From: Bacteroidales bacterium
GTDB taxonomy: Bacteria; Bacteroidota; Bacteroidia; Bacteroidales; P3
Assembly: GCA_031272705.1 (NCBI GenBank)
Contig: JAISTG010000036.1
Location: 1-64,000, forward strand
Direction of reading: 5' to 3'
Length of the DNA stretch: 64,000 bases
Part shown: piece by piece, positions 10,707 through 29,366 of the stretch
How the letters are laid out: the number at the start of each line of letters is the position of its first letter
Position numbering within the stretch: position 1 is the stretch's first letter
Program-made: the position numbers and the translations under genes
Notes under the pieces: generated by a model
Told to the model about the DNA's origin: nothing
The model's database searches: none
The model's input: the letters and a program-made list of their open reading frames with translations, nothing else

Positions 10707-12671
10707 TCAGGAACTGTAAGGCAGGTCGCTTTTTGTGGTTTCTATTATGCCTAATCCTTTGTAATGCAATTTGTTTCTAAAATCAAACATATCTTTTTCT
10801 GCAACCTTGGGAGCAAAAATCACTTCCTCAGTATTTGGACTCAAGTTTCCATATTCAATGTAAAACGCTTCGCTTTCCGCGTCATGCTTAACTCTTTTCT
10901 TATTTTTCAGCATTTCTACCTGAATTATGCGGCATTCCTGCTCCTCTTTGAACGCCACGTGCTTAACCAAATAACGCAAATTCAACAATAACTTTCCTAC
11001 AACCTCCTCATCCAAACCCTCTATCTTTGTTTTCAACTCATCTAACTTCGTTTGAACCGCTTTCTTTGTCGTTTTAATTTTATCTTCGTACGTTTCAATA
11101 TTATTCTTCTCTTCTTGCTTCAGCGTATAACTATCTTTATGTCCTACGGACTCAACAAAACCTGTGTCAGGGTCAAGATATATGCAGCGGAAAAGAGGAT
11201 ATTTTTCTCCCTTTTTTATTTCTATTTTATCCCTTTCATTTTCCCCTCCCATTGCAGTAATTTCTACGGACACACATTGAGCAATTTTATCCTTAAAATA
11301 GTATTTGTTCAGCACAATGCTTACTCCTGTTGCCTCCTTGCCTTCATTGTTTTTGCCGTAAAGCCGAAACTGATTAAGGTTATTAAGATTGAAGGTGAAA
11401 GAACCAATAAAGGCATTGTAAGTATCCGATAATGCTGCATCCTTTTGCTCTATCTTCATTGCATTAAGAAGAGTCAGCCCTTCCTGAGGGTCATTCATCG
11501 TATTGGAAATGCCAAGCCGAAACGGGCTACCATTAGAAGGTTCTTTTTTATCACCAAAGAACAGTATCTTTGCCGTATCCAATTTTGTATAATGGGCAAA
11601 GGCGATCTCATAATCGTTCTTTGTGCCAACCATTTCAACAAAGCATTCCTTCATAATCAGCAAAGACTGAATATAAACATCCTTATATTTCTTTGTTTTC
11701 TTAAATCCTTGCATTGCTTCATTGAAAAAGGGGTCGTATTCTTTGTCTTCCAAAAGTTTATAAACAAATTCAGTTGGATTCTCTTCATAGTTTATCCTAT
11801 CTAAAACGTCTAATAACGGACAATTTCCTTTTTTCAGATTTTTAACTGCTGATTTTATCTTTCCAAGATTTTTATAAGCAAATCCCATATTGTTGTATGC
11901 ATCTTCGTAATTGGGATTTAATTTTATTGCCTTCTTATAACATTTTATTGCTTCCTTGTATTGTCCGTTCCAATTCGCATAAGCAACGCCCATATTGTTG
12001 TATGCGGCTGCGTAATTGGGATTTAATTTTATTGCCTTCTTATAATATTCTATTGCTTTTTCATATTGTTTGTTCCAATTCGCATAAGCATTTCCCATAT
12101 TGTTGTATGCGTATGCGTAATTGGGCTGTAACTCTATTGCCTTCTCATAACATTCTATTGCTTTCTCGTATTGCCCGTTCCAATCCTTATAAGCATTTCC
12201 CATATTGTAGTATGCGGCTACATAATTGGGCTGTAACTCTATTGCCTTCTTATAACATTCTATCGCTTCTTTGTAATTTTGTTTCCCATCCGCATAAGCA
12301 TTTCCCATATTGTTGTATGCATCTGCGTCATCAGGCTCTAATTCTATTGCCTTCTCATAACATTCTATCGCTTTTTTGTAATTTTGTTTCCCATCCGCAT
12401 AAGCAACGCCCATATTGAAATAAGCCTCTGCAAAACCGGGCTTATACTCTATAGCCTTCTCATAACATTCTATTGCTTTTTTGTAATTTTGTTTCCCATC
12501 CGCATAAGCAACGCCCATACATAAGTATGCGGCTGCGTAATCGGGCTGTAACTCTATTGCCTTCTCATACCATTCTATTGCTTTTTCGTAATCCAGATTA
12601 TGAAATGCATCTACACCTTCATTATAGTACTTTTCGGCTAATTGTTCTTTTCTTCTGCTGTCGTTTTTCAT
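10707..12671 (-). CDS. TPR protein with C-terminal DUF2971-like domain
   Basis: A 654-residue protein and the only TPR copy here with an added domain. Residues 1-285 are about seven 35-residue TPR units (YEKAIECYEKAIELQPNYA type; some with DGKQN in place of NWNGQ). Residues 290-360 are helical. From about 365 to 640 the sequence resembles DUF2971: FAHYTKLDTAKILFFGD, then FRLGISNTMNDPQEG (the family's NDPxE-type motif), and later VAFKEEQECRIIQVE near the C-terminus. DUF2971 has no settled biochemical role that I know. It is last in a two-gene run with the 12695-13723 gene (23-base gap). No signal peptide, so probably cytoplasmic. Confidence 0.75.
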   Translation of the reverse strand: MKNDSRRKEQLAEKYYNEGVDAFHNLDYEKAIEWYEKAIELQPDYAAAYLCMGVAYADGKQNYKKAIECYEKAIEYKPGFAEAYFNMGVAYADGKQNYKKAIECYEKAIELEPDDADAYNNMGNAYADGKQNYKEAIECYKKAIELQPNYVAAYYNMGNAYKDWNGQYEKAIECYEKAIELQPNYAYAYNNMGNAYANWNKQYEKAIEYYKKAIKLNPNYAAAYNNMGVAYANWNGQYKEAIKCYKKAIKLNPNYEDAYNNMGFAYKNLGKIKSAVKNLKKGNCPLLDVLDRINYEENPTEFVYKLLEDKEYDPFFNEAMQGFKKTKKYKDVYIQSLLIMKECFVEMVGTKNDYEIAFAHYTKLDTAKILFFGDKKEPSNGSPFRLGISNTMNDPQEGLTLLNAMKIEQKDAALSDTYNAFIGSFTFNLNNLNQFRLYGKNNEGKEATGVSIVLNKYYFKDKIAQCVSVEITAMGGENERDKIEIKKGEKYPLFRCIYLDPDTGFVESVGHKDSYTLKQEEKNNIETYEDKIKTTKKAVQTKLDELKTKIEGLDEEVVGKLLLNLRYLVKHVAFKEEQECRIIQVEMLKNKKRVKHDAESEAFYIEYGNLSPNTEEVIFAPKVAEKDMFDFRNKLHYKGLGIIETTKSDLPYSS

Positions 12672-12694
12672 CGTTTTAATGGGTATTTAATTAA

Positions 12695-13723
12695 CTATTT
12701 GATGTTGTTTGCTTGAAGCCAGTCTTTTGCTTGCTTATATCCGAGTTTTGCAGCCTGCTTCATACAATCTATTCCCTCATCATAGTACTTTAATTTCATA
12801 TAAGCAGCTCCCAGATTGAAATATGCGTATGCGTCATTAGGATTATATTCTATCCCTTTCTCAAAACATTCTATTGCTTTCTCATACTGCCCGTTCCAAG
12901 TCGCATAAGCAAGTCCCATATTAAAATATGCCGTTGCGTCATCGGGATTATACTCCAATGCCTTTTGATAACATTCTATTGCTTTCGCATAATCCTGCTT
13001 ACACATCGCATATGCATTTCCCAGATTTTGATAAACATCTATGTATTCGGTTTTATATTTTGCAGCCTTCTCATAACATTCCAATGCTTTTTCGTATTGT
13101 CCGTTCCACATCCAATAAGCATTTCCCAGATAGAAGTAAGTATTTGCCGCATCAGGTTTTAACTCTATTGCCTTTTGAAAACATTCTATTGCTTTCTCAT
13201 AATCCTGCTTCCAAGCCGCATAAGCACCTCCCATATTGCTGTATGCGTCTGCGAAATCGGGCTTATACTTTATTGCTTCCTTGTAACAGTTTATTGCTTT
13301 GTTGTGTTGTCCGTTCCACTTCTCATAAGCCTCTCCCATAGCATAATATGCTTCCACATTATCGTGTTTATACTCTATGGATTTCTTATAACATTCTATT
13401 GCCTTTGCGTATTGTTCGTTCCAATCCTCATAAGCATGTCCCATAACATAATATACTTCTGCGTAATTATAATATGCGTTCGGGTCATTGGGCGATAATT
13501 CTATTAACTTTTGAAAACATTCTATCGCTTTCTCAAACTGTCCATGCCAAGTAGCATAAGCCATTCCCATATCGTAATATGCGGCTGCGTAATCGGGCTT
13601 ACAGGTTACTGCCCGCTTATAACAATCTATTGCTTTTTCGCAATCATTGTTTTTAAATGCCGTATTGCCTTCCTTTAAGTAAGTTTCGGCTAATTTTTCA
13701 TTTATTTCGTTATCGTTCAACAT
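12695..13723 (-). CDS. TPR-repeat protein, cytoplasmic type
   Basis: A 342-residue protein of about nine 35-residue TPR units. Its N-terminal module (AFKNNDCEKAIDCYKRAVTCKPDYA) is the TCKPD version shared with the genes at 16003, 17023, 21072 and 22358. One unit near residue 80 carries an insert (YYNYAEVYYVMGHAYEDW). It ends with the common cap, GIDCMKQAAKLGYKQAKDWL. No signal peptide. Probably a protein-binding scaffold; partner unknown. First gene after its own promoter, followed by the TPR-DUF2971 gene. Confidence 0.85.
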   Translation of the reverse strand: MLNDNEINEKLAETYLKEGNTAFKNNDCEKAIDCYKRAVTCKPDYAAAYYDMGMAYATWHGQFEKAIECFQKLIELSPNDPNAYYNYAEVYYVMGHAYEDWNEQYAKAIECYKKSIEYKHDNVEAYYAMGEAYEKWNGQHNKAINCYKEAIKYKPDFADAYSNMGGAYAAWKQDYEKAIECFQKAIELKPDAANTYFYLGNAYWMWNGQYEKALECYEKAAKYKTEYIDVYQNLGNAYAMCKQDYAKAIECYQKALEYNPDDATAYFNMGLAYATWNGQYEKAIECFEKGIEYNPNDAYAYFNLGAAYMKLKYYDEGIDCMKQAAKLGYKQAKDWLQANNIK

Positions 13724-13760
13724 AATTTTAATAGGTATTTAATCAAATAATATCAGGTTG

Positions 13761-13768
13761 CAAATATA
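13761..13768 (-). promoter_or_regulatory. -7 box of the 13723-10707 TPR operon
   Basis: Minus strand TATATTTG followed by CAACCTGATATT, the same initial transcribed sequence as the other TPR promoters, but without the GTACG palindrome. Confidence 0.5.
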
Positions 13769-13784
13769 CTATAATTTTTCCAAA

Positions 13785-13810
13785 CGGGACTACGGATAGC
13801 CTAAAGCCCG
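13785..13810 (-). terminator. 3' hairpin of TPR gene (copy 1 of 3)
   Basis: On the minus strand, immediately after the stop codon of the 13811 gene: CGGGCTTTAGGCTATCCG then TAGTCCCG. GGCTA can pair with TAGTCC (one bulge) around TCCG, or the outer CGGG with CCCG. Nearly identical copies follow the TPR genes ending at 19387 and 28260. Confidence 0.65.
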
Positions 13811-14728
13811 TTATTCTATTCCGTTTGCTTTAAGCCAGTCTTTTGCAGGCTCATATCCGAGTTGTGCAGCCTGCTTCATAGATGCTATTGCCTGCTCATT
13901 ATCCCCTAATGTTTCATAAGTAATTCCCATAAGATAATATGCGAGTTCATAATCGGGCGAATGCTCTATTGCTTTTTTATAACATTCTATCGCTTTCTCG
14001 TATTGTTCGTTCCAATGCCTATAAGCATTTCCCATACATAAGTATGCCTCTGCGTAATCGGGCTTCAACGCTATAGCCTTCTCGTAACATTCTATCGCTT
14101 TATCATAATCAAAGTTGTCTGCCGCAGAAGCATTTCCCGTATTGTAGTATGCGTCTGCAAAGTCGGGCAGTAATTTTTTTGTCTGCTCATAACTCCATTT
14201 CCATTCCTCATAAGCATCGCCCATATCGCAATAAGCCTCCGCATAATCGGGCTTATACTTTATTGCCTTCTCGTAACATTCTATTGCCGCCTTATACTGC
14301 GTGTCCCAATCCATATAAACACGTCCCATAAGGTAATATGCGTACCCATAATCCTCCTTATACATTACGGCATGCTCCAAGCATTTTATTGCTTTATCAT
14401 ATTGTTCGTTCCAAATATAATAAGCAAGTCCCATACTATAATATGCGTCTGAATAATCGGGCTTATATTCTATTGCCTTTTGATAACATTCTATTGCTTT
14501 ATCATATTGACTGTCCAAATTATAATAAGCAACTCCCATAAGATAATAAGCCTCTGCATAATCGGGCTTATATTTTATTGCCTTCTCACAACATTTTATT
14601 GCCTTCTTGTATTGTCCGTTGTTATACAAGTCAATGCCTTCGGTAAGATGCTTTGAGGCAACATAATCCTGCGACCAACCCTGTAAAGCGAGCATCACTA
14701 ATACCGAAATAAGAATAAATTTTTTCAT
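13811..14728 (-). CDS. Secreted TPR-repeat protein
   Basis: About 305 residues from the ATG at 14728, which gives a clean signal peptide (MKKFILISVLVMLALQGWSQ); an upstream ATG at 14755 adds nine residues. About eight TPR units follow, beginning LTEGIDLYNNGQYKKAIKCC. One unit is shortened (EEWKWSYEQTKKLLPDFADAY). C-terminal cap: LGDNEQAIASMKQAAQLGYE. The product is probably periplasmic, unlike its neighbours. Single-gene unit with the palindrome-containing promoter upstream and the conserved hairpin downstream. Confidence 0.85.
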   Translation of the reverse strand: MKKFILISVLVMLALQGWSQDYVASKHLTEGIDLYNNGQYKKAIKCCEKAIKYKPDYAEAYYLMGVAYYNLDSQYDKAIECYQKAIEYKPDYSDAYYSMGLAYYIWNEQYDKAIKCLEHAVMYKEDYGYAYYLMGRVYMDWDTQYKAAIECYEKAIKYKPDYAEAYCDMGDAYEEWKWSYEQTKKLLPDFADAYYNTGNASAADNFDYDKAIECYEKAIALKPDYAEAYLCMGNAYRHWNEQYEKAIECYKKAIEHSPDYELAYYLMGITYETLGDNEQAIASMKQAAQLGYEPAKDWLKANGIE

Positions 14729-14769
14729 TTTTTTAATGTGTTTATTTGTTATCAATTTTTATCAGGCTG

Positions 14770-14819
14770 CAAAGATAAATAAAATTGTTATAATGAGAGT
14801 ACGACACGTACCAAAGATA
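14770..14819 (-). promoter_or_regulatory. Tandem TPR promoter with palindrome GTACG-TGT-CGTAC
   Basis: Minus strand: TATCTTTG (14819-14812), palindrome GTACGTGTCGTAC (14811-14799), then a second TATCTTTG (14777-14770) exactly 42 bp further on. The same layout is found before three other TPR genes. Confidence 0.7.
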
Positions 14820-14866
14820 CTATAATTTTCTATAATAAAATTTCTATTCTCTTAAAGTACGTTATA

Positions 14867-15973
14867 TTACTTAGTTCTTTCAATCCACCTCTTTGCTGCC
14901 TCATCTCCGAGTTGTGCAGCCTGCTTCATAGATGCTATTGCCTGTTCCTTATCTCCCAGATCCTCATATGCATGTCCCATCCAGTAATAAGCGGCTGCGT
15001 AATCGGGCTTTAACTCTATTGCCTTTTGAAAACATTCTATTGCCTTCTCGTATTGTCCGTTCCAAGCCTCATAAGCATCTCCCATCCAGAAATAAGCGTC
15101 CGCGTAATCGGGCTTATACTCTATTGCCTTTTGATAATATTCTATTGCTTTTTGATATTGTCCGTTCCAATACCTATAAGCATGTCCCATCCAGAAATAA
15201 GCGTCCGCGTCATCGGGCTTATACTCTATAGCCTTTTGATAATATTCTATTGCCTTCTCATATTGTTCATTCCAATTCTCATAAGCACGTCCCATCCAGT
15301 AATAAGCGTATACTGAATTAGGCTCTAATTCTATTACCTTTCCGTAACATTCTATTGCTTTCTCATATTGTCCGTTCCAATGCCTATAAGCATGTCCCAT
15401 CCAAAGATAAGCGTCTGCATAATTGGGCTTTAATTCAATAGCCTTTTGATAACATTCTATTGCCTTTTGATATTGTCCATTCCAATTCTTATAAGCCCAT
15501 CCCATCCAAAGATAAGCGTATGCAAAATCGGGCTGTAATTTTATACATTTCTTAAAACATTCTATTGCTTTTTCGTATTGTCCATTCCAATCCGCATAAG
15601 CACTCCCCATAAGTCCATAAAATATTGAGGCTTGGGGCTTTAATTTTATTGCTTCCTTATAACATTCTATTGCTTTTTCGTATTGTCCGTCCCAATTCTT
15701 ATAAACACTCCCCATACCCCAATAAGCGAATACAAAATCGGGCTGTAATTTTATACATTTCTTAAAACATTCTATTGCTTTCTCATATTGCCCGTCCCAA
15801 TCTCTATAAGTACTCCCCATCCAAAGATAAGCGAGTACGTAATCGGGCTTTAACTCAATAGCCTTTTGAAAATATTCTATCGCTTTGGCGTAATTGTCAT
15901 TCTTTAATGCCACATAACCTTCATCATAGTATTTTTCGGCTAACTGTTCGTTTGTTTGGCTGTCGTTTTCCAT
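14867..15973 (-). CDS. TPR-repeat protein, cytoplasmic type, WMG variant
   Basis: A 368-residue protein of about ten 35-residue units. Most have WMG (AYLWMGSTYRDWDGQ, AYFWMGHAYRYWNGQ) where paralogues have NMG, so unit types have been homogenised within this gene. N-terminus MENDSQTNEQLAEKYYDEG is shared with the 19387 gene. The cap is LGDKEQAIASMKQAAQLGDE and it ends in KRWIERTK. Third gene of the 19257-14867 operon. Confidence 0.85.
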   Translation of the reverse strand: MENDSQTNEQLAEKYYDEGYVALKNDNYAKAIEYFQKAIELKPDYVLAYLWMGSTYRDWDGQYEKAIECFKKCIKLQPDFVFAYWGMGSVYKNWDGQYEKAIECYKEAIKLKPQASIFYGLMGSAYADWNGQYEKAIECFKKCIKLQPDFAYAYLWMGWAYKNWNGQYQKAIECYQKAIELKPNYADAYLWMGHAYRHWNGQYEKAIECYGKVIELEPNSVYAYYWMGRAYENWNEQYEKAIEYYQKAIEYKPDDADAYFWMGHAYRYWNGQYQKAIEYYQKAIEYKPDYADAYFWMGDAYEAWNGQYEKAIECFQKAIELKPDYAAAYYWMGHAYEDLGDKEQAIASMKQAAQLGDEAAKRWIERTK

Positions 15974-16002
15974 AATTTTAACGGGTGTTTAATTAACTAA
16001 TT

Positions 16003-17004
16003 TTATGACATTCTTTTAATCCATTCCTTTGCGTCCTCATTTCCAAGTTCTGCGGCTTGCTTAAAATATGTTTTTGCCTGCTCTCTGTTGCCTATTGCAA
16101 GATAAGTACCCCCCATATTGCAATAAGCGGCTGCAAAATCGGGATTTAACTCTATTGCCTTCTTATAACATTCTATTGCTTTCTCATATTGTCCGTTCCA
16201 AGCCTCATAAGCAACGCCCATACCTTTATAAGCGGACGCGTAATCGGGCTTTAATTCTATTGCTTTCTCAAAACATTCTATTGCCTTCTCGTATTGTCCG
16301 TTCCATTTCGCATAAGCATTTCCCATATCGTAGTATGCGCCTGCGTAATCGGGCTTTAATTCTATTGCCTTTTGATAACATTCTATTGCTTTTTCATATT
16401 GTCCGTTCCAATTCTCATAAGCAATTGCCATAAGGTTATAAAAGATTAAGTCTTGGGACTTTAATTTTATTGCTTCCTTATAACATTCTATTGCTTTTTC
16501 ATATTGTCCGTTCCAAGCCTCATAAGCACTCCCCATACCCCAATAAGTGAATACAAAATCGGGCTTTAATTTTATTGCTTCCTTATAACATTCTATTGCT
16601 TTCTCATATTGTCCGTTCCAATCTGCATAAACATGTCCCATCCGATAGTAAGCGTCCGCGTCATCGGGCTCATATTCTATAGCCTTCTTATAACATTCTA
16701 TTGCTTTCTCGTATTGTCCGTTCCATTCATAGTAAGCCTCTCCCATCCAGGAATAAGCGTCTGCGTAATCGGGATCTAACTCAATAGCCTTTTGAAAACA
16801 TTCTATTGCCTTTTCGTATTGTCTGTTCCACACCCAATAAGTATACCCCATCCAATAATAAGCGTCTGCGTAATCGGGCTTACAGGTTACTGCCCGCTTA
16901 TAACAATCTATTGCTTTTTCGTAATCATTATCTTCAAAGGCTGTTTCGCCTTCTTCAAAGTATTTTTCGGCTAACTGTTCTTTTATTCTGCTGTCGTTTT
17001 CCAT
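16003..17004 (-). CDS. TPR-repeat protein, cytoplasmic type
   Basis: A 333-residue protein with about nine 35-residue units. N-terminus MENDSRIKEQLAEKYFEEGE and first unit with TCKPDYA, nearly identical to the 17023 gene. Two middle units carry KLKPDFVFTYWGMGSAYE and KLKSQDLIFYNLMAIAYE, also present in diverged form in the 14867 gene, which points to exchange between neighbours. Cap of the second type: AKTYFKQAAELGNEDAKEW. Gaps of 18 and 29 bases to its neighbours indicate an operon. Confidence 0.85.
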   Translation of the reverse strand: MENDSRIKEQLAEKYFEEGETAFEDNDYEKAIDCYKRAVTCKPDYADAYYWMGYTYWVWNRQYEKAIECFQKAIELDPDYADAYSWMGEAYYEWNGQYEKAIECYKKAIEYEPDDADAYYRMGHVYADWNGQYEKAIECYKEAIKLKPDFVFTYWGMGSAYEAWNGQYEKAIECYKEAIKLKSQDLIFYNLMAIAYENWNGQYEKAIECYQKAIELKPDYAGAYYDMGNAYAKWNGQYEKAIECFEKAIELKPDYASAYKGMGVAYEAWNGQYEKAIECYKKAIELNPDFAAAYCNMGGTYLAIGNREQAKTYFKQAAELGNEDAKEWIKRMS

Positions 17005-17022
17005 CGTTTTAAGGGTATTTAA

Positions 17023-19257
17023 TCAATGTTTCATTTTACAAAAAAGAGATTTCAATGCTTTGAAAAACCGATATTTTATGCTGTTTTTTTGAAGCCACTT
17101 TTTTGCTTTATCATTTCCAAGTTCTGCGGCTTTCTTAAAATATGTTTTTGCCTGCTTTCGGTCTCTTAAAAAAAGATAAGTAAATCCTGTAAAGCAATAA
17201 GCCATTGCAAAATTGGGCTCTAACTCTATTGCCTTCTTATAACATTCTATTGCTTTTTCATAATCCTGCTTCCAATTCTCATAAACAAGTCCCATATTGA
17301 CGTATGCCACTACATCATCGGGCTTTAACTCTATTGCCTTTTGATAACATTCTATTGCCTTTTCGTATTGTCCGTTCCAATGCCTATAAGCAAGTCCCAT
17401 AAAGAAATAAGCCTCCGCAAAATCGGGCTTTAATTCTAATGCATTCTCAAAACATTCTATTGCTTGTTCATAATCCTGTATTTCTACATAAGCATATCCC
17501 ATACTTGAAAAATAATGGGGTGCGTTATCGGGCTTATACTTTATAGCCTTTTCATAACATTCTATTGCAACCTCATAATTCTGTTTCCATTTCTCATAAG
17601 CAAGTCCCATTTTGTAGTAAGCCCTTGCGTAATCGGGCTTATAACCTATAGCCTTTTGATAGTAGCCTATTGCTTTCTCGTAATCCTTGTTACAAAACGC
17701 CGTTCCACCTTTCTCAAAGTACTTTTCGGCTACTTGTTCGTTTGTTTTGCCGAGTTCTATTGCTCTCTTAAAATATATATTTGCCTGTTTTCTATCTCCC
17801 AAATTTTCATAAGCATTTCCAATATCAAAATAAGCGTTTGCGTCATCGGGATAATACTCTAATGCCTTCTCGTAACATTCTATTACTTTTTTATCTTGTC
17901 CGTTCCAATTCGCATAAGCACCTCCCATATTGTTGTATGCGGCGGCAAAATCGGGCTTTAACTCTATTGCCTTTTGATAACATTCTATTGCTTTTTCATA
18001 ATCCAGCTTCCAATACTTATAAGCATTTCCCATATTGACGTATGCTTTTGCGTAATCGGGCTTATACTTTATTGCCTTTTGATAACATTCTATTGCTTTT
18101 TCGTATTGTCCGTTCCAATTAAAATAAACATTTCCCATATTGTAGTATGCGTATGCGTAATTGGGTCTTAATTCTATTGCCTTTTCATAACATTCTATTG
18201 CTTTCGCATATTGTCCATTCCAAGCCGCATAAGCACCTCCCATTACAAAATAAGCATCTGCGTCATCAGGATTATACTTTATTGCCTTTTCGTAACAATT
18301 TATTGCTTTTTCATATTGCCAGTTCCAATTCTCATAAACACGTCCCATAGAGAAATAAGCCTCTGCGTCATCAGGCTCTAATTCTATTACCTTCCCGTAA
18401 CATTCTATTGCTTTCTCATATTGTCCGTTCCAATTCTCATAAGCAAGTCCCATATTGTAATATGCATCCGCGTCATCAGGCTTATACTCTATTGCCTCTT
18501 CATAACATTCTATTGCCTTTTCGTATTGTCCGTTCCAATTCTCATAAGCCCGTCCCATATCGTAATATACAAATGCTTTTTCGGGAAAATATTCTAATGC
18601 TTTCTTAAAACATTCTATTGCCTTCTCGTATTGTCCGTTCCAAGCCGCATAAGCATTTCCCATATATAAATAAACCTCGGCGGCATCCTCAGGAGATTTA
18701 ATAACTTCTTCCCAACATCTTATCGCTTCCCCGTAACATTCTATTGCCTTTTCGTATTGTCCGTTCCAATTATAATAAGCATCTCCCATTTTGAAATGAG
18801 CCGTCACGTGATCGGGGTCATATTCTATTACCTTCTTAAAACATTCTATTGCTTTTTCATATTGTCCGTCAAAATCCTTATAAGCATTTCCCATATTGTA
18901 GTAAGCATCTGCGTAATCAGGCTTATACTTTATTGCCTTTTGATAACATTCTATTGCTTTTTCAAATTGCCAGTTCCAATTTCTATAAGTAATCCCCATA
19001 AAGAAGTAAGCGTCTGCGTAATCAGGCTTTAATTCAATAGCCTTTTGATAACAATCTATTGCTTTTTCATATTGCCAGTTCCAATTCTGATAAACACGTC
19101 CCATAGAGAAATAAGCCTCTGCGTAATCAGGCTTACAGGTTACTGCCCGCTTATAACAATCTATTGCTTTTTCGTAATCATTATCTTCAAAGGCTGTTTC
19201 GCCTTCTTCAAAGTATGTTTCGGCTAACTGTTCTTTTATTCTGCTGTCGTTTTCCAT
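17023..19257 (-). CDS. Long TPR-repeat protein, apparent fusion of two paralogues
   Basis: A 744-residue protein with about twenty TPR units. Near residue 500 (about position 17757) a C-terminal cap (LGDRKQANIYFKRAIELG) is followed directly by an N-terminal module (KTNEQVAEKYFEKGGTAFCN), so the gene reads as two ancestral TPR genes joined in frame. Another irregularity is an extended unit near residue 170 (YGEAIRCWEEVIKSPEDAAE). The C-terminus continues past the usual cap (KWLQKNSIKYRFFKALKSLF). No signal peptide. First gene of its operon, after the palindrome promoter. Confidence 0.85.
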   Translation of the reverse strand: MENDSRIKEQLAETYFEEGETAFEDNDYEKAIDCYKRAVTCKPDYAEAYFSMGRVYQNWNWQYEKAIDCYQKAIELKPDYADAYFFMGITYRNWNWQFEKAIECYQKAIKYKPDYADAYYNMGNAYKDFDGQYEKAIECFKKVIEYDPDHVTAHFKMGDAYYNWNGQYEKAIECYGEAIRCWEEVIKSPEDAAEVYLYMGNAYAAWNGQYEKAIECFKKALEYFPEKAFVYYDMGRAYENWNGQYEKAIECYEEAIEYKPDDADAYYNMGLAYENWNGQYEKAIECYGKVIELEPDDAEAYFSMGRVYENWNWQYEKAINCYEKAIKYNPDDADAYFVMGGAYAAWNGQYAKAIECYEKAIELRPNYAYAYYNMGNVYFNWNGQYEKAIECYQKAIKYKPDYAKAYVNMGNAYKYWKLDYEKAIECYQKAIELKPDFAAAYNNMGGAYANWNGQDKKVIECYEKALEYYPDDANAYFDIGNAYENLGDRKQANIYFKRAIELGKTNEQVAEKYFEKGGTAFCNKDYEKAIGYYQKAIGYKPDYARAYYKMGLAYEKWKQNYEVAIECYEKAIKYKPDNAPHYFSSMGYAYVEIQDYEQAIECFENALELKPDFAEAYFFMGLAYRHWNGQYEKAIECYQKAIELKPDDVVAYVNMGLVYENWKQDYEKAIECYKKAIELEPNFAMAYCFTGFTYLFLRDRKQAKTYFKKAAELGNDKAKKWLQKNSIKYRFFKALKSLFCKMKH

Positions 19258-19360: not shown

Positions 19361-19386
19361 CGGGACTACGGACAGCCAAAAGCCCG
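19361..19386 (-). terminator. 3' hairpin of TPR gene (copy 2 of 3)
   Basis: Minus strand, directly after the stop of the 19387 gene: CGGGCTTTTGGCTGTCCG then TAGTCCCG. Same structure as copies at 13785 and 28261, with two base changes. Confidence 0.65.
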
Positions 19387-20079
19387 TTATTCTATGCCAT
19401 TAACTGCAAGCAAATTCTTTGCGTTCTCATTTCCGAGTCGTGCAGCCTGCTTTATACAACTTATTCCCCAACTTTCGTCTCCTAATTCAAAATAAGCAAC
19501 TCCCATATTGCAATAAGCCTCTGCGTAATCGGGCTTTAATTTTATTGCTTCCCCGTAACATTCTATTGCTTTTGCGTATTGTCCGTTCCAATAATAATAA
19601 GCAAGTCCCATACAATAATATGCATCTGCGTAATCGGGCTTATATTTTATTACTTCCTTATAACATTCTATGGCTTTCTCATATTGTCCGTTCCAATTGA
19701 AATAAGCATTTCCCATATTGTAGTATGCGTCTGCGTAATCGGGCTTTAATTCTATTGCTTTCTCATAATATTCTATTGCCTTCACATATTGTCCGTTCCA
19801 ATCCTTATAAGCATTTCCCATATTGCTGTATGCGCCTGCGTAATCGGGCTTTAACTCAATAGCCTTCTTATAATATTCTATCGCTTTTTGATATTGTCCG
19901 TTCCAAAATTGATAAGCACTTCCTATATTGTTGCATGCTCCTGCAAAATCGGGCTTATATTCTAATGCTTTCTTAAAACATTCTATTGCCTTTTCGTAAT
20001 TACGGTTATGAAATGCTATTTCACCTTCATCAAAGTACTTTTTGGCTAATTGTTCGTTTGTTTGGCTGTCGTTTTCCAT
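19387..20079 (-). CDS. TPR-repeat protein, cytoplasmic type
   Basis: A 230-residue protein of about six units with N-terminus MENDSQTNEQLAKKYFDEGE (shared with 14867) and first unit AFHNRNYEKAIECFKKALEY. The cap is diverged (GDESWGISCIKQAARLGNEN). Last gene of the five-gene TPR operon that starts at 22945; 23 bases after the 20103 gene. Confidence 0.85.
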   Translation of the reverse strand: MENDSQTNEQLAKKYFDEGEIAFHNRNYEKAIECFKKALEYKPDFAGACNNIGSAYQFWNGQYQKAIEYYKKAIELKPDYAGAYSNMGNAYKDWNGQYVKAIEYYEKAIELKPDYADAYYNMGNAYFNWNGQYEKAIECYKEVIKYKPDYADAYYCMGLAYYYWNGQYAKAIECYGEAIKLKPDYAEAYCNMGVAYFELGDESWGISCIKQAARLGNENAKNLLAVNGIE

Positions 20080-20102: not shown

Positions 20103-21041
20103 CTATTTTATTCCGTTTTCTTTAAGCCATGCCTTTGCAAAATAACTTCCAAGTTCTGCGGCTTTCTTCATAGATGTTACAGCCTGCTTGCGGTCTCCTA
20201 ATGCTTCATAAGCATCTCCCATATTATAGTATGCATCTGCAAAATCGTGCTTATACTCTATTGCCTTCTTATAACATTCTATGGCTTTCTCATATTGTTC
20301 GTTCCAATCATAATAAGTAAGTCCCATATCGTTGTAAGCATCTGCGTAATCGGGCTTTAATTCTATAGCCTTCTCATAACATTCTATTGCTTTTTCGTGT
20401 TGAGAATTCCAATCCTCATAAGCATTTCCCATAAGGTAATACGTGAATGCATTATCTCCATTGTACTTTATTGCCTTTTGAAAACATTCTATTGCTTTTT
20501 CGTGTTGTTCGCCCCATCTTTCATACGCATATCCTATGCGGAAATAATCGTATGCTAAATCGGGATTCAACGCTATTGCCTTTTCGTAACATTCTATTGC
20601 TTTCCCATGTTGTAGTAACCAATCCTGATAGGCAAGTCCCATATTATAGTATGCGGCTGTGTCATCGGGCTTTAACTCTATTGCCTTCTCGTAACATTCT
20701 ATTGCTTTTTCGTATTGATTATTCCAACCACAATAAGCATCGCCCATATAAAAATATGCGTCTGCCGCATCAGGCTCTAATTCTATTACCTTTTGAAAAC
20801 ATTCTATTGCTTTTTCGTATTGTTCGTAACCAAACTGATAAGCACTTCCCATATTGAGATAGGCATCTACGTAATCGGGCTTTAACGCAATAGCCTGCTC
20901 GCAACACGCTATTACTTTCTCATAATCCCTGCTTTCAAATGCTTTTGTGCCTTGTTGAAACCATTCTTCAGCCGTTTGTGAGTTGGCATTAAACCCGATA
21001 CAACCAAATATCAGGCTCGTAATAATTGCTTTAATTTTCAT
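20103..21041 (-). CDS. Secreted TPR-repeat protein
   Basis: A 312-residue protein with a signal peptide (MKIKAIITSLIFGCIGFNANS, cleavage probably before QTAEEW). About eight TPR units follow, starting AFESRDYEKVIACCEQAIAL. The leader and the TAEEWFQQG motif are shared with the 21494 gene, so these are a secreted subfamily. Cap: LGDRKQAVTSMKKAAELGSY. Some units use other linkers (LLQHGKAIECY, GEQHEKAIECF). Probably periplasmic. Confidence 0.85.
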   Translation of the reverse strand: MKIKAIITSLIFGCIGFNANSQTAEEWFQQGTKAFESRDYEKVIACCEQAIALKPDYVDAYLNMGSAYQFGYEQYEKAIECFQKVIELEPDAADAYFYMGDAYCGWNNQYEKAIECYEKAIELKPDDTAAYYNMGLAYQDWLLQHGKAIECYEKAIALNPDLAYDYFRIGYAYERWGEQHEKAIECFQKAIKYNGDNAFTYYLMGNAYEDWNSQHEKAIECYEKAIELKPDYADAYNDMGLTYYDWNEQYEKAIECYKKAIEYKHDFADAYYNMGDAYEALGDRKQAVTSMKKAAELGSYFAKAWLKENGIK

Positions 21042-21071
21042 GTCTCTTCGTTTTAATGTTGTTTTTATTAA

Positions 21072-21470
21072 CTATTCTATTCCGTTTTCTTTAAGCCAAT
21101 TCTTTGCAGACTCATGTCCGAGTTGTGCAGCCTGCTTCATAGATGCTATTGCCTGCTCGTTGTCTCCTGTTTTAAGATAAGCAGCCCCCATATTGTAGTA
21201 TGCCATTGATAAATCCAGCTTATGCTCTATTGCCTTCTCCCAACATTCTATTGCCTTTTGATAACATTCTATTGCTTTTTCATATTGTTTGTTCCAATGA
21301 TAATAAGCACCCCCCATATTAACGTATGCGTATGCTAAATCGGGCTTACAGGTTACTGCCCGCTTATAACAATCTATTGCCTTTTCGCAATCATTGTTGC
21401 TAAATGCCGTATTGCCTTCTTTAAAGTATGTTTCGGCTAATTGTTCTTTTATTCTGCTGTCGTTTTCCAT
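21072..21470 (-). CDS. Short TPR-repeat protein
   Basis: A 132-residue member with only about three TPR units: the TCKPD first module, one unit with an internal ten-residue duplication (CYQKAIECWEKAIEHK) and the cap LGDNEQAIASMKQAAQLG-type (here TGDNEQAIASMKQAAQLGHE). It looks like a minimal N-module plus cap, perhaps formed by unequal deletion. In the middle of the five-gene operon. Confidence 0.8.
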   Translation of the reverse strand: MENDSRIKEQLAETYFKEGNTAFSNNDCEKAIDCYKRAVTCKPDLAYAYVNMGGAYYHWNKQYEKAIECYQKAIECWEKAIEHKLDLSMAYYNMGAAYLKTGDNEQAIASMKQAAQLGHESAKNWLKENGIE

Positions 21471-21493
21471 AATTTTAACGGGTGTTTAATCAA

Positions 21494-22327
21494 CTATTTA
21501 ATTCCGTTTTCTTTAAGCCAATATTTTGCATCCTCATCTCCGAGTTCTGCAGTCTTCTTTATACAACTTATTGCTTGCTTGTCGTCTCCCATTAAGCCAT
21601 AAGCAGCCCCCATATTGCGATAAGCGGCTGCTAAATCGGGCTTTAATTCTATTGCCTTCTTATAACATTCTATGGCTTTATCATATTGTCCATTCCAATC
21701 CCTATAAGCATTTCCCATATAAAAATATGCCGTTGCGTAATCGGGATTATACTCTAATGCCTTTTGATAACATTCTATTGCTTTCGCATATTGTCCATTC
21801 CAATTCGCATAAGCAAGTCCCATATAAAAATAAGCGTTCGCGTAATCGGGATTATACTCTAATGCCTTTTGATAACATTCTATTGCTTTCGCATATTGTC
21901 CATTCCAAGCCGTATAAGTAATTCCCATATTGTGGTATGCTTTTGCGTCATCAGGCTTTAATTTTATACATTTCTTATAACATTCTATTGCTTTTTCATA
22001 TTGCCCGTTCCACTTATAATAAGCAACTCCCATATTGTTGTATGCTCCTGCAGAATCGGGCTTTAATTCTATAGCCTTCTCATAACATTCTATTGCTTTC
22101 TCATATTGTCCGTTCCAATCACAATAAGCATCGCCCATATTGAAATAAGCCTCTGCAAAATCGGGCTTATATTCTAATGCTTTCTCCAAACATTTTATCG
22201 CTTTCTCATAATCACTATTATCAAAGGCTGTTTCGCCTTGTTGAAACCATTCTTCAGCCGTTTGCGATTTGGTATTAAACCCGAGAAAACCAAATATCGA
22301 ATTGTTAATAACTGCTTTAATTTTCAT
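21494..22327 (-). CDS. Secreted TPR-repeat protein
   Basis: A 277-residue protein with signal peptide MKIKAVINNSIFGFLGFNTK (then SQTAEEW) and about seven TPR units. Two consecutive units (YAKAIECYQKALEYNPDYA) are almost identical in DNA, a recent 105-bp duplication. Cap: MGDDKQAISCIKKTAELGDE. Second gene of the operon from 22945, gaps of 30 and 23 bases. Confidence 0.85.
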   Translation of the reverse strand: MKIKAVINNSIFGFLGFNTKSQTAEEWFQQGETAFDNSDYEKAIKCLEKALEYKPDFAEAYFNMGDAYCDWNGQYEKAIECYEKAIELKPDSAGAYNNMGVAYYKWNGQYEKAIECYKKCIKLKPDDAKAYHNMGITYTAWNGQYAKAIECYQKALEYNPDYANAYFYMGLAYANWNGQYAKAIECYQKALEYNPDYATAYFYMGNAYRDWNGQYDKAIECYKKAIELKPDLAAAYRNMGAAYGLMGDDKQAISCIKKTAELGDEDAKYWLKENGIK

Positions 22328-22357
22328 GTCTATTCGTTTTAATGTTGTTTTTATTAA

Positions 22358-22945
22358 CTATTTTATTCCGTTTTCCAGAAGCCATTGCTTTGCGTCCTCA
22401 TCTCCGAGTTGTGCAGCCTGCTTTATACAACTTATTGCCTTGTTTCCGTCTCCCATTAAGCCATAAGCCCCTCCCATAAAAAAGTATGCATCTGCTAAAT
22501 CGGGATTATACTCTATTGCCTTCTCCCAACATTCTATTGCTTTCTCATATTGCTCGTTCCAAGCCGCATAAGCATTTCCCATATTGTTGTATGCGTTTGC
22601 GTAATCGGGCTTTAATTCTATTGCCTTCTCCCAACATTCTATTGCTTTCTCATATTGCTCGTTCCAATGCTTATAAGCATGTCCCATATTGTTGTATGCG
22701 TTTGCGTAATCGGGCTTATACTCTATAGCCTTCTCATAGCATTCTATCGCTTTCTCATATTGTCCGTTCCAAGCCGCATAAGCAATTCCCATATTGTAGT
22801 AAGCGTATGCGGCATCGGGCTTACAGGTTACTGCCCGCTTATAACATTCTATTGCTTTCTCGTAATCCTTATTATAAAATGCAATTACACCTTCACCAAA
22901 GTATGTTTCGGCTAATTGTTCTTTTATTCTGCTGTCGATTTCCAT
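22358..22945 (-). CDS. TPR-repeat protein, cytoplasmic type
   Basis: A 195-residue protein with about five units, N-terminus MEIDSRIKEQLAETYFGEGV and the TCKPD first module. Two middle units share YEKAIECWEKAIELKPD with a Trp in place of Tyr. Cap: MGDGNKAISCIKQAAQLGDE, ending WLLENGIK. First gene of the five-gene operon, with a TATCTTTG promoter box at 22983-22990 (minus strand). Confidence 0.85.
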   Translation of the reverse strand: MEIDSRIKEQLAETYFGEGVIAFYNKDYEKAIECYKRAVTCKPDAAYAYYNMGIAYAAWNGQYEKAIECYEKAIEYKPDYANAYNNMGHAYKHWNEQYEKAIECWEKAIELKPDYANAYNNMGNAYAAWNEQYEKAIECWEKAIEYNPDLADAYFFMGGAYGLMGDGNKAISCIKQAAQLGDEDAKQWLLENGIK

Positions 22946-23682: not shown

Positions 23683-23702
23683 GCCTTTTTGCGTCCCAAC
23701 GA

Positions 23703-23984: not shown

Positions 23985-24045
23985 ATATCAAAATAAAATC
24001 AAAAAAAATGATAACCGAAACCGTATCCGATAAAATTAAAATGAG

Positions 24046-24649: not shown

Positions 24650-24922
24650 ATGAGGTTCTTAAAAGTTAATAAACCAAGACAGTTTGAGTACAAACCCCGC
24701 TTCTACGACCCCAAAAAGGAGAAATTGGAGCAGTTAAAGGCGAAGTACGGGGCTATAGAAGGCGAACGATACAACAGAAGGATAAATTTCCGCGCCGCAA
24801 TGAACGAAAAGAAAAGCGAAAAGATAGGAAAACCCGTCCCAATGCTGAAAATAATCGTCTATGCCTGCGTTGCGGTGGCACTGATTTACGTCTTACTTTA
24901 CTTCATTGAGCAATGGCGATAA
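24650..24922 (+). CDS. Small basic single-pass membrane protein upstream of mutL
   Basis: A 90-residue protein with a basic cytoplasmic N-terminal region (RFYDPKKEKLEQLKAKYGA) and one C-terminal membrane helix (MLKIIVYACVAVALIYVLLY). Its end overlaps the mutL start by 10 bases, so the two are coupled. I recall similar small proteins before mutL in Bacteroidetes, but no function is known to me. Confidence 0.8.
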   Translation: MRFLKVNKPRQFEYKPRFYDPKKEKLEQLKAKYGAIEGERYNRRINFRAAMNEKKSEKIGKPVPMLKIIVYACVAVALIYVLLYFIEQWR

Positions 24923-26658
24923 TCAAAGTTCTTAACGACAACATAGCAAACCAGATTGCTGCGGGGGAAGTGGTGAATCGTCCCGCTTCTGTGGTGAAAG
25001 AACTGATGGAAAACTCCATTGACGCAGGGGCTACGCAAATTACGCTCATTGTAAAGGACGCCGGCAAAACGCTTATCCAAATCATAGACAACGGATGCGG
25101 TATGGACAGGGACGATGCTCAGGTTTGTTTCACTCCTCACGCCACTTCCAAAATCTCTTCCGCCGATGACCTGTACTCATTGCAGACTATGGGGTTCAGA
25201 GGTGAGGCTTTGGCGTCCATAGCAGCCATTTCCTTTGTGGAATTGCGAACGAAGAGAAAGACAGACAAGGCTCCCACAGGTACGCTTGTTTGCGTTGAGG
25301 GCGGCGAAATCAAAAAAGTAGAAGAGGTTCTTTGCGATAACGGCACATCTATCAGCGTTAAGAACATCTTTTTTAATACTCCGGCAAGGCGAAACTTCCT
25401 TAAATCGGACAGCATTGAGAATTCACACATCACGGAAGAGTTTATCCGTATAGCCCTCTGTCGTAACGAAATAGCCTTCACCTGTTACAGCAACGACAAA
25501 CTGCTCTTTAAACTCGACAAAACCCCATTCCGCAAACGTATAACCGACATCTTCGGCAAGCGATACGAGGAAAAACTCCTCCCAATCACCGAAGAAACCG
25601 ACATAGTGAGCATCAACGGCTTCATATCCAAAATCGACCTCGTTAGAAAAAGCAAAGACGAGCAGTATTTCTTTGTTAATGGCAGGTTTATGAGACATCC
25701 GTACTTTGCAAACGCCATCTCGCGTGCCTATACGGGACTTATTCCCGATGGAACGCACCCCTGTTTTGTTGTTTGCCTGCAAGTGAAGCCCGAAAACATA
25801 GATGTGAATATCCATCCCTCAAAAACGGAAATCAAATTCTTGGATGAACGCTTCATATACAGCATTCTGCACGCTGCAGCCAAGCGTTGTCTCGGTCTTT
25901 TCGCACTTGAGACTCAGATAGACTGGGATTTGCCGACCACCATTGAGTTTTCACCCAAACCAACCGACACTCCACCCAAACCGCCTACCATTTCATACAA
26001 CCCAAACTACACTCCCTTTAAGGCAAATACCGATTTTGACCGTCCAACGCCCAATCCTACGGAACTGAACATCGTTCTGCCGCAACCGACGGACACTCCG
26101 CCGCCGCCCAAACCCTTTCAAACGGCACAGAAATATATTGTGGTGCCGCACAGGGAGAGTTTGGTTATAATCAATCAACAAAGGGCTTCGTTCAAAGTGC
26201 TTTACGACAGGTTTATGTCGGCTGCCGAGTCGGTGATAACCCCTCAAAAACTGCTCTTTCCTCATAACCATTTCTTCAATCCTGCCATCAGTTTCAGGTT
26301 GTTGGAATTTGGTGCGGAGTTACAACGCTTTGGTTTTGAGGTTGCTTATAAGGCTGACGGTTCTTTTGACATCACGGCGACTCCAGCCGATTTCACCATA
26401 GAGCAATCAACGGATGCCATTGACCAATGGCTCAACGATATTGCCACAATGAGCGATGACGATGACCAGCGCCGACATCATACCGCCGTAACCTTCGCTC
26501 AACGCCTCAGCATCCGCAACGGACAGAGCCTCAGCGAAGAAGAAATTAACAGCCTCCTGTCTCAACTCTACGCCACCGCCGATTGCGAACATACCTGCCT
26601 CAACGAACGTATCTTAATCCGCATTTCACCCGACCGTTTGGACACCCTGTTTCAATAA
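24913..26658 (+). CDS. mutL: DNA mismatch repair protein MutL
   Basis: A 581-residue MutL. The N-terminal GHKL ATPase has VKELMENSIDAGA (catalytic Glu and Asn), IIDNGCGMD, and TMGFRGEALASIAA; the transducer region has QYFFVNGRFMRHP and DVNIHPSKTEIKF. A Pro-rich linker spans about residues 345-405. In the C-terminal dimerisation domain, the place where endonuclease-type MutL has DQHA-x2-E-x4-E reads NQQRASFKVLYD, so metal-binding residues of that motif are missing. Coupled to the preceding small membrane protein gene. Confidence 0.95.
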   Translation: MAIIKVLNDNIANQIAAGEVVNRPASVVKELMENSIDAGATQITLIVKDAGKTLIQIIDNGCGMDRDDAQVCFTPHATSKISSADDLYSLQTMGFRGEALASIAAISFVELRTKRKTDKAPTGTLVCVEGGEIKKVEEVLCDNGTSISVKNIFFNTPARRNFLKSDSIENSHITEEFIRIALCRNEIAFTCYSNDKLLFKLDKTPFRKRITDIFGKRYEEKLLPITEETDIVSINGFISKIDLVRKSKDEQYFFVNGRFMRHPYFANAISRAYTGLIPDGTHPCFVVCLQVKPENIDVNIHPSKTEIKFLDERFIYSILHAAAKRCLGLFALETQIDWDLPTTIEFSPKPTDTPPKPPTISYNPNYTPFKANTDFDRPTPNPTELNIVLPQPTDTPPPPKPFQTAQKYIVVPHRESLVIINQQRASFKVLYDRFMSAAESVITPQKLLFPHNHFFNPAISFRLLEFGAELQRFGFEVAYKADGSFDITATPADFTIEQSTDAIDQWLNDIATMSDDDDQRRHHTAVTFAQRLSIRNGQSLSEEEINSLLSQLYATADCEHTCLNERILIRISPDRLDTLFQ

Positions 26659-26751: not shown

Positions 26752-28260
26752 ATGGAATGGCTAAATATTGTTTGTGATTGCTTAAATGCTGACAGAACGA
26801 TTGCGATTGTAAGTCTTATTATTGCGATTGTAGGTCTTTTTATTACGTTTAAGGCTTGGAATTCTGCTAAAGAAGCAAACAAAAACACAAAGGAAATACT
26901 AACTGATATACAAAAAACTACAAGAACTATAAAAATACTTCTCGAAAACCTGATTTCAAAGATTGTAAAAGAAAATCCAAATCCAAATGACTTATTACCA
27001 AACGATATAAAGACTATTAAGGCTTATGATGAAATCAATACCAATCCTCAAACTGCCGAAGAATTGTTCTTGAAAGGTTATGCCGCACAAACGAAAAATG
27101 AATATGAAAACGCAATAGAATATTATAAGAAAGCAATAGAATTAAAGCCCGATGAACCCGTCCCATACAACAATATGGGAAATGCTTATCAGAATTGGAA
27201 CGGACAATATGAAAAAGCAACAGAATGTTTTGAGAAAGCAATAGAATGTTATGAGAAGGCAATAAAATTAAAGCCCAATTACGCAGATGCATACTACAAT
27301 ATGGGAAATGCTTATCAGAATTGGAACGGACAATACGAAAAGGCAATAGAATGTTATAAAAAGGCAATAGAATTAAATCCCGATGACGCAGTCGCATACA
27401 ACAATATGGGAAATGCTTATGGAACAGGATTGCAACAATATGAGAAAACAATAGAATGTTATAAGAAGGCAATAGAATTAAAGCCCGATTACGCGGACGC
27501 TTACTACAATATGGGAAATGCTTATGGAACAGGATTGCAACAATACAAGAAAGCAATAGAATGTTATGAGAAGGCAATAGAATTAAAGCCCGATGACGCA
27601 GACGCTTACTACAATATGGGAAATGCTTATGGAACAGGATTGCAACAATATGAGAAAGCAATAGAATGTTATAAGAAGGCAATAGAATTAAAGCCCGATT
27701 ACGCGGACGCATACAACAATATAGGAGTTGCTTATGAAAAAGGATTGCAACAATACAAGAAAGCAATAGAATGTTATGAGAAGGCAATAGAATTAAAGCC
27801 CGATGACGCGGTCGCATACTACAATATGGGATATGCTTATGACGATTGGAAAGGACAATATGAGAAAGCGGTAGAATGTTACGAAAAGGCAATAGAGTTA
27901 AAGCCCGATTATGCAGAGGCTTATAATAATATGGGATTGGCTTATAATAATTGGAAACGGGATTATGAAAAAGCAATAAAATGTTATGAGAAGGCAATAG
28001 AATTAAAGCCCGATGACGCGGACGCATACTACAATATGGGAAATGCTTATGCGAATTGGAACGGACAATATGAAAAAGCAATAGAATGTTATGAGAAGGC
28101 AATAGAGTTAAAGCCCGATGATGCAGATGCTTACTACAATATGGGACTTGCTTATGCGGAATTAGGAGACAACGAGCAAGCAATAGCATCTATGAAGCAG
28201 GCTGAACAACTCGGAGATGAGCCTGCAAAGCAATGGCTTGAAGAAAACGGAATAAAATAA
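26752..28260 (+). CDS. Membrane-anchored TPR-repeat protein
   Basis: A 502-residue protein. Residues about 14-37 form one membrane helix (TIAIVSLIIAIVGLFITF), followed by a coiled linker (about 40-95), then about eleven TPR units and the cap LGDNEQAIASMKQAEQLGDE. Four units use GTGLQQ in place of NWNGQ (AYGTGLQQYEKAIECYKK), a variant amplified only here. One unit has a ten-residue internal duplication (CFEKAIECYEKAI). Same family as the leftward cluster, with the same promoter and 3' hairpin, so probably a transposed or dispersed copy. Confidence 0.87.
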   Translation: MEWLNIVCDCLNADRTIAIVSLIIAIVGLFITFKAWNSAKEANKNTKEILTDIQKTTRTIKILLENLISKIVKENPNPNDLLPNDIKTIKAYDEINTNPQTAEELFLKGYAAQTKNEYENAIEYYKKAIELKPDEPVPYNNMGNAYQNWNGQYEKATECFEKAIECYEKAIKLKPNYADAYYNMGNAYQNWNGQYEKAIECYKKAIELNPDDAVAYNNMGNAYGTGLQQYEKTIECYKKAIELKPDYADAYYNMGNAYGTGLQQYKKAIECYEKAIELKPDDADAYYNMGNAYGTGLQQYEKAIECYKKAIELKPDYADAYNNIGVAYEKGLQQYKKAIECYEKAIELKPDDAVAYYNMGYAYDDWKGQYEKAVECYEKAIELKPDYAEAYNNMGLAYNNWKRDYEKAIKCYEKAIELKPDDADAYYNMGNAYANWNGQYEKAIECYEKAIELKPDDADAYYNMGLAYAELGDNEQAIASMKQAEQLGDEPAKQWLEENGIK

Positions 28261-28287
28261 CGGGCTTTGGGCTATCCGTAGTCCCGT
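28261..28287 (+). terminator. 3' hairpin of TPR gene (copy 3 of 3)
   Basis: Immediately after the stop: CGGGCTTTGGGCTATCCG then TAGTCCCG. GGGCTA pairs with TAGTCCC (one bulge) around TCCG. Confidence 0.65.
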
Positions 28288-28306
28288 TGTAGAAAATTAT
28301 AATCCC

Positions 28307-28394
28307 TTTGGTACGTGTCGTACTGACGTTATAAAAAATTTATTTATCTTTGGTACGTGTCGTACTCACGTTATAGAAAATTTATTTATCTTTG
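28307..28394 (+). promoter_or_regulatory. Triplicated 42-bp TPR promoter module
   Basis: Palindrome GTACGTGTCGTAC at 28311 and again at 28353, each preceded by a -7 type box (degenerate CCCTTTG at 28304; TATCTTTG at 28345), and a final TATCTTTG at 28387. Every step is 42 bp. Confidence 0.7.
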
Positions 28395-28430
28395 CAGCCT
28401 GAAATTAGTTGATAAAAAAATCTTAAAACT

Positions 28431-29366
28431 ATGAATTACATTGACAAAATAAAGGCATACCTCGCCAAAAGGCAATGGTACAAAGGCAAAAAAGCCTTCA
28501 AAACACGACAATACGAAAAAGGAATACAACATTACGAAAAAGCCCTGAAATTAAAGCCTAATTACCCTGAGGCTTACCGCAGTATGGGAGTTTGTTACGC
28601 CGCTTGGCACGGTCAATACGAAAAAGCAATAGAATGTTATCAAAAAGCAATAGATTTAAAACCCAACTACGCAGAGGCTTATCGCAATATGGGAGTTGCT
28701 TACTCCGCTTGGAAATGGCAATACGAAAAAGCAATGGAATGTTTTCAAACCGCCGTAATATATAAGCCCGACTTGGCAGAGGCTTACTTCAATATGGGAA
28801 CCGTTTACAGAGACTGGAACAAACAATTCCAAAAAGCAATAAAATGTTATAAAAAAGCCATTGATTGCAAACCCGATTACGCAAAGGCTTATCTCAATAT
28901 GGGAACGGCTTACAGGTTTTGGAAAAGAAAGTTTGAGCAGGCAGTGAAATGTTACGAGATGGCAATAGAATTAAAGCCCGATTACGTAGATGCTTATCTC
29001 AATCTGGGAAAAACTTATCGTGTCTGGAATAAACAATACGAAAAAGCAATAGAATATTACAAAAAAGTATTGGAATTAAATCCCAATCTGGCGGAGGCTT
29101 ATTACAATCTGGGAAAACTTTATCGCGTTTGGGACAATCAATACGACAAAGCCTTTGAATACTTTGATAAAGCATTGAAACTGAAACCCGACTATGCAAA
29201 ATTATATCTCTATATGGGCAAAATGTATCTAAGTATGGGTAACAAAGAACGTGGAACGGAAGCCATAAAAAAAGCAGCGGATTTAGGCGTTAAGGCAGCC
29301 AAAGATTTACTTGCCGAAAACGACCCCGACGCAATAAGTTTGCAGGATATTGAAACGGAAGATTAA
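28431..29366 (+). CDS. TPR-repeat protein, diverged member
   Basis: A 311-residue protein with about eight TPR units of the same 35-residue type (AYRNMGVAYSAWKWQYEKAM) but more divergent in codons and linkers (WNKQ, WKRKFEQAVKCYEMA). N-terminus MNYIDKIKAYLAKRQWYKGK is unique. Cap: MGNKERGTEAIKKAADLGVK, then an acidic tail. No signal peptide. Same promoter module as its neighbour. Confidence 0.85.
   Translation: MNYIDKIKAYLAKRQWYKGKKAFKTRQYEKGIQHYEKALKLKPNYPEAYRSMGVCYAAWHGQYEKAIECYQKAIDLKPNYAEAYRNMGVAYSAWKWQYEKAMECFQTAVIYKPDLAEAYFNMGTVYRDWNKQFQKAIKCYKKAIDCKPDYAKAYLNMGTAYRFWKRKFEQAVKCYEMAIELKPDYVDAYLNLGKTYRVWNKQYEKAIEYYKKVLELNPNLAEAYYNLGKLYRVWDNQYDKAFEYFDKALKLKPDYAKLYLYMGKMYLSMGNKERGTEAIKKAADLGVKAAKDLLAENDPDAISLQDIETED

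Follow-up and report, generated by a model that had tools for sequence, protein, structure and literature searches.

In fungi and plants, concerted evolution together with diversifying selection on the binding face of repeat proteins marks non-self recognition. Restorer-type pentatricopeptide repeat (PPR) proteins of plants are under diversifying selection at their recognition positions. The corresponding restorer-of-fertility-like genes form clusters of two-helix-repeat paralogues, which have been described as an arms race (PMC5075784, PMC5080715). In fungal NLRs, such as the HNWD proteins of Podospora, the repeat domains consist of WD40, ANK or tetratricopeptide repeat (TPR) units, which show concerted evolution and diversifying selection at the interaction positions (PMC4986451). 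Bacteria are represented by putative antigen sensors whose binding residues are changed by diversity-generating retroelements (PMC10907252). Here we describe a family of TPR genes in a 64,000-nt stretch of DNA (the window), which belongs to a 71-kb contig in a Bacteroidales genome of 2.15 Mb; the family is a bacterial counterpart to the mode of evolution seen in fungal NLR repeats and in the restorer PPR genes of plants. We assign a probability of about 0.75 to the reading that this family constitutes a repertoire of TPR binding proteins specific to the genus and evolving by concerted evolution and diversifying selection.

The likeness to the fungal NLR repeats extends to conserved units, concerted evolution within and between paralogues, variation in repeat number, diversifying selection at the interaction surface and the use of TPR arrays. 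Unlike them, the window family is bacterial, comes in cytosolic, exported and membrane-anchored frames, and includes one member with a DUF2971 domain. As no NACHT or NB-ARC domain was seen, either among the best 25 families listed for six window proteins or when the non-TPR parts of g1 and g12 (gene names as in Table 1) were scanned alone, the family works like a fungal NLR system without being a member of it. While PPRs bind RNA, the window TPRs are expected to bind peptides or proteins; and in contrast to the retroelement-based sensors, no reverse transcriptase (RVT_1) was found in the four genus genomes, the change of the family being attributed to point mutation, recombination and selection.

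The TPR unit and its variable face

A recount of open reading frames (ORFs) gave 13 TPR genes in the window, consisting of a minus-strand tandem series of 11 (10707-22945) and a plus-strand pair (26752-28260 and 28431-29366). Thus, the tandem cluster proposed by the first-pass annotation stands, but its figures of twelve genes, ten of them in tandem, do not; its placement of mutL between the two groups was correct, as were its 35-residue unit of 105 bp with similarity at the DNA level, its range of about 3 to 20 units per gene and its TCKPD, TNEQ and signal-peptide classes of N-terminal module, all of which are found in the ORF translations or the repeat analysis. Tandem Repeats Finder detected the 105-bp unit in nearly every TPR gene with 67-84% matches, and the number of units runs from 2-3 in g9 to about 20 in g6. 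Cytosolic N-termini of the MENDS...TCKPD and MENDSQTNEQ types are seen in g1, g2, g4-g7, g9 and g11, signal-peptide N-termini in g3, g8 and g10, and a membrane-anchor N-terminus in g12.

Membership in the TPR family is evident from matches to Pfam TPR_1, TPR_8 and TPR_11 far over the cut-off. The AlphaFold2 model of g4 (mean pLDDT 96) is a regular two-helix solenoid of alternating helices. The g12 protein also scores 64 bits against the TPR-S sensor profile PF20308 (cut-off 27.6), with generic TPR profiles scoring far higher. The best sequence matches in the PDB are designed consensus TPRs (CTPRs; 9qhb, 8bu0), which share the near-constant scaffold; compared with these, the natural units of the window, at 35 residues, exceed the classic TPR by one, and it is the turn connecting helices A and B (W-N-G-Q) that holds the additional residue.

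In an alignment of 79 in-register window units, the highest entropies were found at positions 9 (3.37 bits), 2 (3.24) and 12 (3.23), followed by 13 (3.05), 5 (2.74) and 6 (2.64), with all other positions at 2.4 bits or less and scaffold positions 4, 7, 8, 11 and 20 almost invariant. The sister species display the same pattern, except that position 34 (2.73) stands above position 6 (1.53). Given that the most variable positions of TPRs in general are 2, 5, 9, 12 and 13 (with 33 and 34), which lie on the ligand face, and that the ligand contacts of the HOP TPRs are at positions 2, 5, 6, 9, 12 and 13 (PMC1261162), this pattern in itself is typical of TPRs in general. The unusual point is that such variation of the ligand face occurs within one genome, among units that are young paralogues and share an almost constant scaffold. 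For positions 5, 9, 12 and 13, 86 units of the window genome yield 80 distinct residue signatures, of which just 4 recur in one sister species and 1 in another.

We estimated the ratio of non-synonymous to synonymous substitution rates (dN/dS) by pairwise codon likelihood on disjoint adjacent units picked without regard to their similarity; estimates from pairs picked for a low proportion of synonymous differences (pS) are biased and were not used. The concave positions (2, 5, 9, 12 and 13) gave dN/dS values of 1.7 in the window genome and 3.0 and 9.0 (the grid limit) in the sisters. Across the three genomes, the scaffold had values of 0.3-0.6, and five positions treated as convex had values of 0.6-1.3. 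Comparison of the concave sites with neutrality yielded twice the log-likelihood difference (2dlnL) of 26, 86 and 142. To guard against a bias in dN/dS from short conversion tracts restricted to helix B, helix A was refitted alone, with concave values of 3, 6 and 9 and 2dlnL of 34, 79 and 88. Simulated neutral concave codons returned estimates near 1 and 2dlnL of no more than 9.2, compared with 186-223 for the real pooled data. Since recombination between units violates the pairwise model, the absolute dN/dS values are approximate and the contrast between the faces is the robust part of this result.

Concerted evolution and distribution in the genus

Where residues agree, codon agreement exceeds the level predicted from codon usage by 0.43-0.58 between genes within a genome and by 0.22-0.33 between the three well-sampled species. 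The choice of synonymous codon at fixed positions is particular to each genome; for example, Lys19 is encoded by AAA, AAA and AAG and Pro32 by CCC, CCC/CCT and CCT in the three genomes. The g1 units exemplify this: their silent identity is 0.749 to other genes of their own genome versus 0.637 to the DUF2971-carrying relative in the sister genome G001, and the N-terminal modules of these two DUF2971 genes are of different types. That silent sites are common to loci within a genome and differ between species points to concerted evolution.

Traces of the exchange itself were noted in several genes. Over their first 141 bp, which encode the N-module, g5 and g6 are 98% identical in DNA, and over the units that follow only 71-77%; g3, g9 and g12 have C-caps with 88-89% identity despite three kinds of N-terminus. 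A 26-bp 3' element is present in only three copies in the genome, and all three are at TPR stop codons, on both strands. In g11-g10-g9-g8, a pair of a cytosolic and an exported gene is repeated with near-identical spacers of 23 and 30 bp, a layout that points to duplication of a gene pair. Exact 69-bp repeats, 105 bp apart in g10 (tandem unit duplicates) and 210 bp apart in g12 (two-unit duplications), testify to recent unit duplications within genes. The first-pass annotation had proposed from the layout that exchange within and between genes brings rapid change in the binding surface; the genome-specific silent sites, the break in identity between g5 and g6 and the shared 26-bp element bear out the former part, and the site-specific dN/dS above 1 at concave positions, with its scaffold and convex controls and neutral simulations, the latter.

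A unit profile search recovered at least 109, at least 119, 3 (G002, where one of the arrays counted is truncated at the end of a contig) and at least 95 copies from the four draft genus assemblies, from which all unit numbers derive. As 57 further genomes from the family and order (Bacteroidales) hold 0 or 1 copy each, compared with about 100 in three genus genomes, the expansion is genus-specific. In the sister species the TPR genes occupy different loci, where they stand alone or form groups of at most four, and none was found in the parE and mutL neighbourhoods; units, unit order and locus position all differ between species. For instance, purB and an ABC transporter gene enclose three TPR genes in G001; the two enclosing genes adjoin directly in G002 and G003 and are separated by an HU-like gene in G000. 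The latter (L083:2057-2482) belongs to the HU-HIG type, and another HU-HIG gene lies beside the window TPR cluster (23196-23603). The exported members of G001 (L012-L019) use the signal-peptide module MKFHNIIRMFALVFSVFA..., those of G000 and G003 use MKIK...NANSQ, and many C-caps end in SW.

Md513_bin60, from a series of metagenome-assembled genomes (MAGs), has been linked to the termite Mastotermes (PMC12483993). MAGs with such names appear to come from termite guts, and the window organism probably lives in one; literature searches found no description of this TPR family in termite-gut Bacteroidales.

Competing explanations

In the reading that we favor, recombination reshuffles the roughly 100 units of 35 residues and similar DNA sequence that a genome contains, as the genome-specific silent sites, mosaic N-modules, shared 3' elements and species-specific loci show; purifying selection holds the two-helix scaffold, and the concave residues 2, 5, 9, 12 and 13 are driven to change, as their dN/dS shows. 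Judging from sequence, these units are presented in several frames, as cytosolic, exported and membrane-anchored proteins and, in g1, joined to a putative effector-like DUF2971 domain. The proteins would recognize peptides or proteins from a shifting set, possibly those of an antagonist or partner such as a gut protist, a phage or a rival bacterium, and selection would then favor new binding specificities; the first-pass annotation had named surface, phage or host factors as candidate partners. Several points weigh against this. The genus assemblies are in about 20 to 130 contigs, and longer identical repeats may be lost from them: the longest exact repeat in the array is 87 bp, so an assembler with longer k-mers can resolve the array, but any longer identical duplicates would collapse or break contigs. 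Recombination between units breaks the pairwise model, though the helix A refit and the convex controls address regional effects. Repeat proteins in general diverge fast among their repeats and are then conserved vertically (PMC5120217), so that part of the dN/dS signal could reflect an old burst. An old burst is disfavored because unit signatures are hardly shared between species, but the species are not close (MutL identity of 64-72%).

TPR proteins of Bacteroidetes serve in cell-envelope assembly, gliding and secretion. Several members of the family look exported or anchored, and could accordingly be envisaged as a structural or housekeeping scaffold family with fixed partners, whose diversification served subfunctionalization in earlier times and has stopped; yet congeneric species have kept almost no signatures and few loci in common, which is unusual for a fixed role and makes this quite unlikely. 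We consider it very unlikely that relaxed selection alone is at work, with repeats amplified by slippage and concave residues drifting because most copies lack a specific ligand. Repeat copies do often pass through relaxed purifying selection (PMC5120217), and unit number varies freely here; but neutral drift should leave dN/dS at or below 1, in place of the 1.7-9 at concave positions, the exposed convex positions lie at 0.6-0.8 overall, the 2dlnL of 186-223 far exceeds the maximum of 9.2 in neutral simulations, and all 13 TPR frames are open.

Targeted hypermutation, for example by a diversity-generating retroelement writing the concave codons, has a precedent in the bacterial antigen-sensor-like proteins (PMC10907252), and was suggested by the third bases: codons 6, 9 and 13 vary at bases 1 and 2, and the third base is T in 81-88% of the units of the window genome. 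Such constancy is also expected from young units under amino-acid selection, position 12 ends in G or T depending on the species, and its GAG, AAG and CAG codons could not arise from an AAY template. As no RVT_1 match was obtained in any of the four genus genomes, although positive controls were detected, a retroelement mutator is rejected as far as the assemblies go, and we regard targeted hypermutation as extremely improbable.

We only tentatively extend the favored reading, a TPR binding repertoire under concerted evolution and diversifying selection, to a bacterial recognition repertoire, in which one recombining pool would feed cytosolic, exported, membrane-bound and DUF2971-fused receptors directed at an antagonist or host that keeps changing; this NLR-like system, lacking the NLR core and a retroelement mutator, is possible but rather doubtful. 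With the selected residues known and the genes distributed over as many as about 10 loci of a 2-Mb genome, this clear case in what is probably a gut bacterium offers a tractable system, and the constant scaffold with about 80 binding signatures constitutes a natural TPR library for reading specificity.

The DUF2971 gene and other features of the locus

The C-terminus of g1 (10707-11810) matches DUF2971 (PF11185) with 24.2 bits against a cut-off of 22 and is 60% identical to the DUF2971 domain of the G001 gene. The relatives of this domain, most of which carry TPRs at the N-terminus, come chiefly from gut-associated Bacteroidales, Fibrobacterota and spirochaetes, with others in Acinetobacter; the DUF2971-TPR matches include Azobacteroides, Symbiothrix and Treponema names. 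The top structural matches of the predicted domain (pLDDT 85) are Tpt1/KptA and DarT with Z-scores of 5.7-6.9, followed by other ADP-ribosyltransferases (ARTs). These models lean modestly towards an ART-like domain, which we treat as a lead, since the Z-scores are below the stand-alone level, the Foldseek E-values exceed 0.1 and the sequence profile gives no convincing ART. An AFKEEQECR motif, invariant in 32 DUF2971 homologues, may have a catalytic or active-site role. PADLOC returned mainly generic TPR matches and none for the DUF2971 domain alone, the DUF2971 neighbourhoods in Acinetobacter, Aggregatibacter and Dysgonomonas display no obvious defence island, and the DUF2971 literature found was a genome re-annotation. 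A distant DUF2971 relative occurs on two viral contigs.

Table 1. TPR genes, 3' elements and intervening genes of the window
Feature	Position	Strand	Description
g1	10707..12671	-	cytosolic-type N-module, 7 diversified TPR units, C-terminal DUF2971
g2	12695..13723	-	cytosolic-type N-module, about 8 TPR units, C-cap
26-bp 3' element CGGGCTTTAGGCTATCCGTAGTCCCG	13785..13810	-	abuts g3 stop codon
g3	13811..14755	-	signal-peptide type, likely ATG a few codons in, about 6-7 units, C-cap
g4	14867..15973	-	cytosolic type, 10 TPRs
g5	16003..17004	-	cytosolic type
g6	17023..19257	-	longest, about 20 TPRs; second N-module-like segment inside
26-bp 3' element	19361..19386	-	abuts g7 stop codon
g7	19387..20079	-	cytosolic type, about 6 TPRs
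g8	20103..21041	-	signal-peptide type
g9	21072..21470	-	cytosolic type; shortest, 2-3 TPRs
g10	21494..22327	-	signal-peptide type, weak signal sequence; tandem unit duplicates
g11	22358..22945	-	cytosolic type; opens minus-strand series
HU-like gene	23196-23603		HU-HIG DNA-binding protein; between TPR groups, beside cluster
Cytidine deaminase	24080		between TPR groups
mutL	24913-26658		between two TPR groups
g12	26752..28260	+	N-terminal hydrophobic helix (membrane anchor), about 11 TPRs
26-bp 3' element	28261..28286	+	abuts g12 stop codon
g13	28431..29366	+	about 8 TPRs; N-terminus and C-tail of its own

The cluster is flanked by parE on the left and a SpoU-type methyltransferase gene on the right. 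The 26-bp element also forms the start of three cassettes upstream of g2, g6 and g13 (13724-13810, 19258-19386 and 28261-28430), which end in 1, 2 and 3 copies, respectively, of Bacteroidetes-like TAnnTTTG promoter motifs, so that the number of promoter repeats seems to vary among them. Across the window, we also noted intergenic arrays with a period of 21 bp (or 42 bp) at 2954-3162, 23699-24006, 32351-32395, 38177-38249, 41882-41980, 43986-44030, 53604-53742 and 62189-62254. These are often variants of AATCAAATTATAGAACGCTAT and its complement, and the array at 2954 consists of ten TCATATACGTATACNAAGTTT units.

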